Below, in pieces: positions 15,901 to 59,350 of a DNA stretch of 64,000 nt; the first letter of the stretch is position 1; each line of letters starts with the position of its first letter. Location of the stretch: contig CAMBIX010000001.1 of NCBI GenBank assembly GCA_945867815.1, positions 248,001 through 312,000 on the forward strand. The letters are read 5' to 3'. This stretch comes from an uncultured Veillonellaceae bacterium (GTDB taxonomy: Bacteria > Bacillota > Negativicutes > Veillonellales > Veillonellaceae). The position numbers and the translations under genes are program-made. Below the pieces are notes generated by a model. It had not been told where the DNA came from. It searched no databases and was given only the letters and a program-made list of their open reading frames with translations.

Positions 15901-15927
15901 CAAGAGATTATGGTTACATACATGCTG

Positions 15928-16053
15928 TCTTTTTCCATCCAGACTATACTGTCGGTATCGGACTTGCACCGAATCAACCCCGCAGGGCTTGCGGACTATC
16001 ACCGCCGGTCAGGAATTGAATGCCAACGCATTCTCACCTTGCCTCAAAGACTC
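15928..16053 (-). ncRNA. FMN riboswitch (RFN element)
   Basis: Read on the minus strand, the conserved RFN blocks occur in order: AGGCAAGGTGAGAAT, GACCGGCGGTGATAGTCCGC, a GGTGCAAGTCCG hairpin and ACCGACAGTATAGTCTGGATGG. The closing stem uses GTCTTTGA at the 5' side and AAAAAGAC at the 3' side. The element binds FMN and controls the ribD-ribE-ribBA-ribH transcript. Confidence 0.96.
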
Positions 16054-16067
16054 TCTACGTCTCTTAT

Positions 16068-18644: not shown

Positions 18645-18745
18645 CTTCACTTCATCTACCAGATTTATATCTGTCGGAATTAGCACCTTCTACCAGGTTG
18701 CTGCAATTTTATTGGGCCAGTCCCTCCACTGCTCTTGATGATGTT
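18645..18745 (-). ncRNA. SAM-I (S-box) riboswitch upstream of the sbp/cysT remnants
   Basis: The minus strand carries the S-box core: ATCAAGAG, GTGGAGGGACTGGCCC, GCAGCAACC, then GGTGCTAATTCCGAC and a closing GATGAAG. A terminator follows. The switch represses downstream genes when SAM is abundant. Its target genes are now broken, so it may be a vestigial switch. A second S-box in the window precedes metK. Confidence 0.93.
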
Positions 18746-22160: not shown

Positions 22161-22220
22161 TCAAATATCCTTATCTCCTTCATGTATACAAGATTAAGTG
22201 CTGATAAGAGGAGCAAAGAG

Positions 22221-22284
22221 GAGCATGACTTTCTCGCAGACACCTTACATAGTACCAGCGTCCTAGAGAAAACCATGCTCCTCA
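22221..22284. repeat. Hairpin repeat copy f, 3' of the FAD/Fe-S oxidoreductase
   Basis: The outer arms GAGGAGCATG and CATGCTCCTC are perfect complements. An inner TTTCTC/GAGAAA stem and a GACAC/GCGTC stem lead to the loop CTTACATAGTACCA. It is 3' of the minus-strand dehydrogenase gene and upstream of the OPT gene. Only a weak TTT follows on the minus strand. Confidence 0.8.
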
Positions 22285-31973: not shown

Positions 31974-33230
31974 TTATAATTTTGAAAAGTCCAACGTTGC
32001 AAATAAATCATCCAATGTCTCTGCTCGACGAATCTGTTCTACGCTGCCGTCTGCATGTAATAATAACTCTGCTGATCGTAGTTTACCATTATAATTAAAC
32101 CCCATGGCGTGACCATGAGCACCAGCATCATGAATAACGATACGGTCACCAATATCAATCTTAGGCAATTTGCGGTCAATAGCGAACTTATCGTTATTTT
32201 CGCAAAGAGACCCTGTTACATCATATACATGATCTTTTGGCGCATTTTCTTTACCCATAACCGTAATATGATGATAGGCACCATATAAAGCAGGACGCAT
32301 TAAATTAGCCATACAAGCATCTAGACCAATATAATGTTTATAAATATTCTTTTCATGAATAGCCGTCGCTACTAGATAGCCATAAGGGCCAGTAACCATA
32401 CGACCACATTCAAAAGCCAAGGAAATAGGACTGTGTCCCTTGCTAATTAAGATTTCTTCATATTCTTTACGAATACCAGCACTTAAAGCTTCAAAATCAA
32501 CAGGTGTATCTTCTGGTTTATAAGCAACCCCAATGCCACCGCCTAAATCCATAAAGGAAATTTCAATACCTGTCTTAGCCTTAATATCCTGCGCCATATT
32601 AAACATAATACGAGCCGTACCAATTAAGCCTTTAATATCTAACTCATTGGAAACAACCATAGTGTGTAAACCGAACTTTTTTACACCATGATTCTTACAA
32701 TAATTAATAGCCTCAATAATTTGGTCATGCATCATGCCATACTTAGCTTCTTCTGGTAAGCCAATGATATCATTACCGCCCTCTTTTAAAGACCCTGGAT
32801 TATAACGGAAGCATAAGGTTTCTGGCAACTTACCTAAATTCTCTTCAATATAGGCAATATGGGTAATATCATCTAAATTAATAATAGCCCCTAGCTCCAT
32901 AGCCTTCTTATATTCTACATAAGGCGTATCATTAGATGAAAACATAATGGATTCACCCGATAGCCCTACCTTTTCACAGAGAACCAGTTCAGCCAAAGAA
33001 GAACAGTCCGCACCAACGCCTTCCTTCTTTAATAATTTCATAATATATGGATTAGGCGTCGCCTTAACAGCAAAATATTCTCTAAAATTAGGTGCCCAAC
33101 TAAAAGCCTTTAAAAAACGACGAATATTTTTAACAATACCTGCTTCATCATAAATATGAAACGGTGTTGGATACTTTTTAATAATTTTTTCTAATTGCTC
33201 TTTTGTAAATGGTACTTTCTTTTCGTTCAT
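31974..33230 (-). CDS. lysA: Diaminopimelate decarboxylase-like PLP enzyme
   Basis: A 418-residue fold-type III decarboxylase that makes lysine from meso-diaminopimelate. The PLP lysine is Lys56 in YFAVKATPNP. DLGGGIGVAY and ECGRMVTGPYGYLV bind phosphate and cofactor. GSLCENNDKFAIDRKLP carries the catalytic Cys and GAHGHAMGFNYNGKLRSAE closes the site, matching LysA more than ornithine or carboxynorspermidine decarboxylases. The ATG is preceded by a modest GGAG. It forms a single-gene unit between groESL and suf. Related lysine/ornithine decarboxylase activity cannot be excluded from sequence alone. Confidence 0.85.
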   Translation of the reverse strand: MNEKKVPFTKEQLEKIIKKYPTPFHIYDEAGIVKNIRRFLKAFSWAPNFREYFAVKATPNPYIMKLLKKEGVGADCSSLAELVLCEKVGLSGESIMFSSNDTPYVEYKKAMELGAIINLDDITHIAYIEENLGKLPETLCFRYNPGSLKEGGNDIIGLPEEAKYGMMHDQIIEAINYCKNHGVKKFGLHTMVVSNELDIKGLIGTARIMFNMAQDIKAKTGIEISFMDLGGGIGVAYKPEDTPVDFEALSAGIRKEYEEILISKGHSPISLAFECGRMVTGPYGYLVATAIHEKNIYKHYIGLDACMANLMRPALYGAYHHITVMGKENAPKDHVYDVTGSLCENNDKFAIDRKLPKIDIGDRIVIHDAGAHGHAMGFNYNGKLRSAELLLHADGSVEQIRRAETLDDLFATLDFSKL

Positions 33231-33365
33231 AAGCTCTCCTTTATCTCGACAATATATTTTTTATTATACCGAATATATACCTAGCCCGCAAGCAAGCACT
33301 CAGTATTATTCTGTATTAAGCACTATATTACAAGTAAAGAAGCGAGATAATTATTCTGTATCTAA

Positions 33366-33463
33366 TCTTAGCAGAATGTCACGAAGCACCTTGTGCTTCT
33401 CGTAGGCTACTACGCTAGTCAGGAGCCCTAGAGAACGTACAAGGTGCTTCTGTAGATCAAAAT
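33366..33463. repeat. Hairpin repeat h1 (tandem unit 1 behind groEL)
   Basis: A 98-bp unit starting TCTTAGCAGAATGTCACGAAGC. Arms GAAGCACCTTGT (33383-33394) and ACAAGGTGCTTC (33439-33450) are perfect. An inner CTC/GAG and GGCT/AGCC stem holds the 15-nt loop ACTACGCTAGTCAGG. No T-tract follows on either strand. The next unit repeats the layout with a different stem. Confidence 0.8.
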
Positions 33464-33560
33464 TCTTAGCACTATGTCACGAAGCGTCTGAAGATTCTTG
33501 AAGGCGACTTGCGAAGAACGGAGCCCTGAAAGAACTTCAGACGCTTCCGTACTCTGGATT
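33464..33560. repeat. Hairpin repeat h2 (tandem unit 2 behind groEL)
   Basis: The unit starts TCTTAGCACTATGTCACGAAGC, 98 bases after h1. Arms GAAGCGTCTGAAG (33481-33493) and CTTCAGACGCTTC (33535-33547) are perfect, but differ from h1 by paired changes. An inner GGC/GCC stem holds a loop containing ACTTGCGAAGAACGG. The shared flank and kept pairing argue for a selected structure. Confidence 0.8.
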
Positions 33561-33561
33561 A

Positions 33562-33600
33562 TAAAAAAAAGGACAAACAGCTAACGCCATTTGTCCTTTC
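33562..33600 (-). terminator. groESL terminator
   Basis: On the minus strand AAAGGACAAA and TTTGTCCTTT pair around a 12-nt loop, followed by a run of eight T in total. It is placed just after groEL. The rest of 33231-33635 holds only the two hairpin repeats and an AT-rich lysA upstream region. Confidence 0.85.
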
Positions 33601-33635: not shown

Positions 33636-35291
<1,656 letters not shown>

Positions 35292-59245: not shown

Positions 59246-59350
59246 CTTCCTCATCTACCGGCTACGCCGTCGGAATTAGCACCTTTTCACAAAGAAGGGT
59301 TGCTGTAGTTTCAAAGGGCCGTACCCTCCACTACTCTTGATGAGACTTAT
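59246..59350 (-). ncRNA. SAM-I (S-box) riboswitch upstream of metK
   Basis: On the minus strand the S-box blocks are complete: CTCATCAAGAG, GTGGAGGGTACGGCCC, GCAACCCTT, GGTGCTAATTCCGAC and closing GATGAGG. The terminator and the metK ribosome site follow. It binds SAM and stops metK transcription. Confidence 0.96.

Follow-up and report, generated by a model that had tools for sequence, protein, structure and literature searches.

A dispersed hairpin repeat with covarying arms in a Veillonellaceae genome, approached from two units between groEL and lysA

The gap behind groEL in an uncultured Veillonellaceae bacterium holds two adjacent 98-bp units whose long arms differ in sequence, yet pair perfectly within each unit. 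This raises the question of where the two units came from, and of what has kept their fold while the letters of their stems changed.

The two units and their family

Within the window (the whole 64-kb stretch of DNA analysed), the two direct copies begin at 33366 and 33464, at a spacing of exactly 98 bp, and are 70% identical over 64 nt. Their flank TCTTAGCA-N2-ATGTCACGAAGC occurs exactly twice in the window, where 100 shuffles give an expectation of 0. The segment GGAGCCCT is found once per unit, at 33422..33429 in unit 1 and 33520..33527 in unit 2; on the minus strand it reads AGGGCTCC and is a core conserved in the alignment of excised hairpins described below (A1). Two further exact matches to GGAGCCCT lie in window sequence lacking the unit flanks. 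In unit 1 the arms GAAGCACCTTGT (33383..33394) and ACAAGGTGCTTC (33439..33450) are complementary over all 12 nt (100%), and in unit 2 GAAGCGTCTGAAG (33481..33493, plus-strand reading) pairs perfectly with CTTCAGACGCTTC (33535..33547). Folding z-scores against shuffles are -6.0 and -3.9 for the two units on the plus strand, and -4.1 and -3.4 on the minus strand. A preliminary description made from the letters of this DNA was accurate in the coordinates, period and common motifs of the units and in the complementarity of both pairs of arms.

It was also right in separating the units from termination of groEL. A complete intrinsic terminator (33567..33600, minus strand; 15 pairs and a T run) stands between the groEL ORF (33636..35276, minus) and the units, upstream of both. 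On their downstream side, ahead of the lysA ORF (diaminopimelate decarboxylase; 31974..33230, minus), lies a candidate lysA promoter, TTGCGG-N17-TATAAT (33263..33291, minus), picked by eye, with a -35 box that matches at 3/6 positions and so falls under the threshold of the promoter scan and is absent from its list. The units thus fill the space between the terminator and the probable promoter. Directly 3' of both stands GTGACAT with no T run, and they therefore do not qualify as intrinsic terminators themselves. Searches with Rfam gave no match to the units above the gathering score and only chance-level matches over them. Elsewhere in the window Rfam recognizes one FMN and two SAM riboswitches on the minus strand (15923-16055, 59248-59346, 18649-18744).

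Searched against their own genome (1.97 Mb in 17 contigs) with a BLAST-type method, the units gave 57 matches. From these, 31 hairpins were excised by their paired arms into alignment A1, from which the covariance model R1 was built. Run over the whole genome, R1 yields 129 hits at E<=1, antisense duplicates included. In sequence stretches taken around the copies it recovers 88 that do not overlap, at E<=1e-6; unit 1 is absent from these 88, presumably through its 2-base overlap with unit 2. The genome therefore carries about 90 dispersed copies of a hairpin repeat of about 100 nt. As A1 derives from matches to the two units, and R1 in turn from A1, more distant kin could escape the search. 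Contigs were also seen to break in or beside copies (first 130 bases of contigs C15 and C16, last 80 bases of C17), and the true copy number may therefore be higher.

The canonical element reads CAGnGTAyGGAAGC - variable arm - TCTC..GGGCTCC..GTCGCC..GAGA - arm' - GCTTCGTGACATAGnGCTAA. The family ends are CAGnGTAyGGAAGC and GCTTCGTGACATAGnGC, which are inverted only in part (GTACGGAAGC against GTCACGAAGC in A1). In the groEL-lysA gap the canonical strand is the minus strand, that of both genes; neither this nor the genome-wide family was visible to the preliminary description. Unit 2 (33461..33559, minus) is a full-length member and the top-scoring copy of the genome (105.6 bits, E 9.4e-28), and comes first in canonical orientation. 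Unit 1 (33363..33462, minus; C1:281363-281462) comes second, is also full-length (80.2 bits, E 3.9e-20) and belongs to a different subfamily. A third family-like hairpin of the window (22219-22282, minus, 32 bits) has the core CTCTAGGACGCTGGTACTATGTAAGGTGTCTGCGAG and unrelated arms, and is flanked by two long minus-strand genes.

Covariation, placement and orientation

The preliminary description held that the fold was maintained through paired changes, and this is borne out over the 88 copies of a second alignment, A2. There, 89.7% of the cells pair against 74.2% after shuffling, double-changed paired cells number 276 against 96, with 0 of 500 shuffles reaching the observed count, and covariation scores 0.558 (shuffled, 0.247). 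When the partners are slid by one column, pairing falls to 40-47%. Covariation thus exceeds both the shuffled and the slid controls, as a selected fold would predict. Since A2 was fitted to the model and structure is thereby favoured, 25 independent sister pairs (identity at least 0.75) were compared as well. These show 17 double paired changes where 5.7 are expected, an expectation that treats the two sides as independent and ignores rate differences among positions, for rows drawn from the same alignment. One-sided changes in the same pairs number 27 that keep the pair and 32 that break it; paired changes are thus in excess, but breaks are nonetheless common, and the outcome that the preliminary description named as its refutation, breaks as frequent as paired changes, is reached only in part. 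All 12 outer pairs are intact in just 30 of the 88 copies, so that the perfect arms of the two groEL-lysA units exceed the typical copy. DNA-level processes, however, yield the same covariation signal as a selected RNA fold.

Strong copies are intergenic, with none in a convincing gene; the handful of ORFs that they overlap lie on the opposite strand and are 99-131 aa long. Orientation agrees with the sign of the GC skew in 102 of 105 copies, and in a placement set of 64 arrays, drawn from 92 stronger copies, the element strand has positive GC skew in 62. In 57 of 62 arrays the gene upstream has the same orientation as the element. As 87% of the coding bases at array loci lie on the element strand, gene direction and replication direction are inseparable here, and orientation was dropped as a means of telling an RNA role from a replicative one. 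Median distances are 34 nt to the upstream stop and 113 nt to the next start. With terminators called by a simple fold test, 31 of the 57 arrays with a co-oriented upstream gene have one on neither side.

These placements bear on the main rival to mobility, namely that the repeats are 3'-UTR RNA elements under selection, strong hairpins that shield the mRNA of the gene upstream against 3' exonucleases or define where it ends, a function also suggested for REP. Such a role may coexist with mobility. The short distance from the stop is as it would predict, as are the co-oriented upstream genes, the 11 convergent against 3 divergent gaps, and the 42 of 57 arrays (those with a co-oriented upstream gene) in which the interval from stop to element is free of a terminator. 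Three family-like hairpins with T runs resemble real terminators, and G-U pairs are kept in 27 of 59 one-sided changes, against about 25% estimated from flank substitutions. However, the remaining 15 of the 57 arrays, the groEL-lysA pair among them, already sit behind a terminator, a few strong copies (e.g., C11:6838) lie between genes of opposite orientation, and much of the placement is predicted by gene-strand bias together with promoter avoidance. The excess of G-U over A-C cells (107 to 64) is close to the ratio of about 1.5 that the flank substitution spectrum alone predicts, and does not establish selection on one strand. We regard the 3'-UTR role as a possible but minority explanation. 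At A2 columns 19/203, unlike every other pair, A-C is as frequent as A-U or G-C (26, 26, 25).

Another process that would keep arms paired, here without any selection, is DNA template switching (quasipalindrome correction), in which replication uses one arm to rewrite its partner. It has been described for RNA hairpins (PMC8794818) and for E. coli quasipalindromes (PMC7202029), and the clustering of adjacent double changes in the repeat (6 observed, 2.1 expected, p about 0.01) is compatible with its occasional action as in the former. The preliminary proposal put either selection or replacement of whole arms behind the paired changes; the clustering leaves room for template switching. Wholesale replacement is unneeded, since for 60 of the 88 copies there is another that differs by 0-1 arm pairs, and the arm types therefore form a stepwise series. 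Types one pair apart are what gradual change predicts, and one-sided intermediates are abundant in the sister pairs, both of which speak against template switching as the general explanation. It would account for the upkeep of arms and not for spread, orientation or nesting; it is therefore a contributor at most, and an unlikely answer by itself.

Independent arrival and nesting

The preliminary description took one unit to be a tandem copy of the other made on the spot, with the paired changes arising afterwards. The exact 98-bp period and common flanks speak for this view, and some other arrays are indeed true local duplications (C1:234882-235201, C2:180451-180752, C9:26156-26384). It is rejected as highly improbable by nearest-neighbour ranks: in a set of 105 copies the nearest relative of unit 1 is C1:7332 (identity 0.75) and that of unit 2 is C1:19453 (0.83), while their mutual identity of 0.59 ranks only 12 and 53 of 104 and their loops fall in different subfamilies. 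With their nearest relatives elsewhere, the units are independent arrivals, and arrays that mix subfamilies, like this pair, are frequent. In the relative G011, groEL and lysA are also neighbours, with a gap of about 235 bp that has a terminator and no units; this shows the lineage-specific presence of the units rather than a precise empty site.

Of 71 arrays, 24% have upstream and downstream flanks complementary at a score of at least 35, a share that falls to 3.6% once flanks are exchanged among arrays by shuffling; about a quarter of the arrays thus sit inside a larger hairpin. Joining the flanks of C7:97201, C7:41114, C7:9757 and C13:25686 gives in each case a single long hairpin whose loop holds the element. 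By their loops these four copies (L082, L080, L078 and L097) belong to one subfamily. The outer hairpin of C7:97201 is followed by TTTTTT, and at least one of the four flank hairpins is terminator-like. Such nested copies suggest insertion into hairpin loops; growth of an outer hairpin around an element already in place is the less likely alternative.

The spread over about 90 gaps, the fixed orientation, the mixing of subfamilies and the nesting argue together for mobility of a folded strand. We therefore lean, with modest confidence, to reading the two units as independent, co-oriented copies of a lineage-specific hairpin repeat that is a non-autonomous mobile element multiplied as a folded single strand. 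Some trans-acting enzyme would recognize the conserved ends and core and tolerate any paired arm sequence. Relative to the replication fork it would work in a single orientation, with hairpin loops as frequent targets, and copies that land behind gene ends would be tolerated; the groEL-lysA pair would then have come to lie in the stretch that separates the groEL terminator from the likely lysA promoter. A search for the Y1 transposase domain (PF01797) gave no match in the genome of the repeat and was positive in 5 of 14 control genomes. Mobilization of the RAYT/IS200 type by a resident enzyme was accordingly rejected. As to an autonomous parent, the conserved ends stand nearly always about 100 bp apart, and no pair was noticed at the distance of an insertion sequence.

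Relatives and known repeat systems

The repeat is lineage-specific in comparison with 60 related genomes. R1 found no copy of comparable score in 27 genomes of the family (best 29.7 bits) and, under stricter filters, none at E<=1e-6 in any of 60 other members of the order. A pattern scan of GTDB gave 8 matches, of which all those scored with R1 were weak (about 14 bits); one in a Veillonellaceae MAG (14 bits, within a coding region) was rejected as chance. In viral contigs, all 15 pattern matches were at chance level under R1.

Related genomes do hold 0-4 hairpins each with the apical core GCTCCGTTCTTCGCAAAGTCGC (CTCC..AAGTCG), many with T runs and terminator-like (L121 in G015 near 1.919 Mb, and L137-L164). 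Their core is nearly the same as GGGCTCCGTTCTTCGCAAGTCGCC of unit 2, but their paired arms are unrelated and they have not expanded into a dispersed repeat. The core may thus be older than the repeat family. Downstream of several of these hairpins, at about 30 nt, AGTCCCATAG is conserved. Terminators of the repeat's own genome with GAGCTGGT..AAGGCTC loops represent a third core variant, and four terminator-like hairpins there (L063, L065, L091, L095) have the common loop GAGCTGGTnCTnnnGnAAGGCTC on unrelated arms.

Our literature search on such repeats in Negativicutes found nothing relevant; several known systems offer comparison. REP/REPIN elements with their RAYT (TnpA_REP) are likewise high-copy intergenic palindromes, for which movement via single-strand recognition and roles in termination and mRNA stability have been proposed (PMC3116915, PMC8266576, PMC3733652). 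REPs measure 20-40 bp, and most have a GTAG or CGTC tag (PMC3733652). The present repeat, with its unit of about 100 nt and long variable arms, is not a short tagged palindrome, and its genome is without the Y1 (TnpA_REP) transposase. MITEs and the pneumococcal BOX/RUP are small non-autonomous repeats interspersed in intergenic gaps (PMC5896051, PMC3049150). Our repeat is also small and interspersed between genes, but has no detected parent insertion sequence, and its stem sequence is free while pairing is kept. ERIC/IRU of enterobacteria are imperfect palindromes of about 127 bp, intergenic, with conserved core and ends. They resemble the repeat in these respects, but its arms are far more variable and its host is another; their sequence is not known to be related.

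On balance, the repeat is best read as a new family of the REP/ERIC/MITE kind whose copies spread in folded single-stranded form and may also have an RNA role in 3'-UTRs. A more specific version, which we offer speculatively and hold doubtful, is a miniature element spread as a folded strand by non-Y1 machinery. It would prefer the apical loops of hairpins already present (those of terminators and of its own kin), insert in one orientation to replication, and depend on recognition of a paired stem of any sequence together with a small core that terminator loops across the bacterial family have in common. With about 90 copies in one genome, the repeat constitutes a natural covariation experiment in which arm letters are free, pairing is kept, and ends and core are conserved. 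Together with close strains, the family could separate selection, template switching and mobility. Should empty sites bear out the placement in terminator loops, this would argue for insertion guided by structure, with no known transposase involved.
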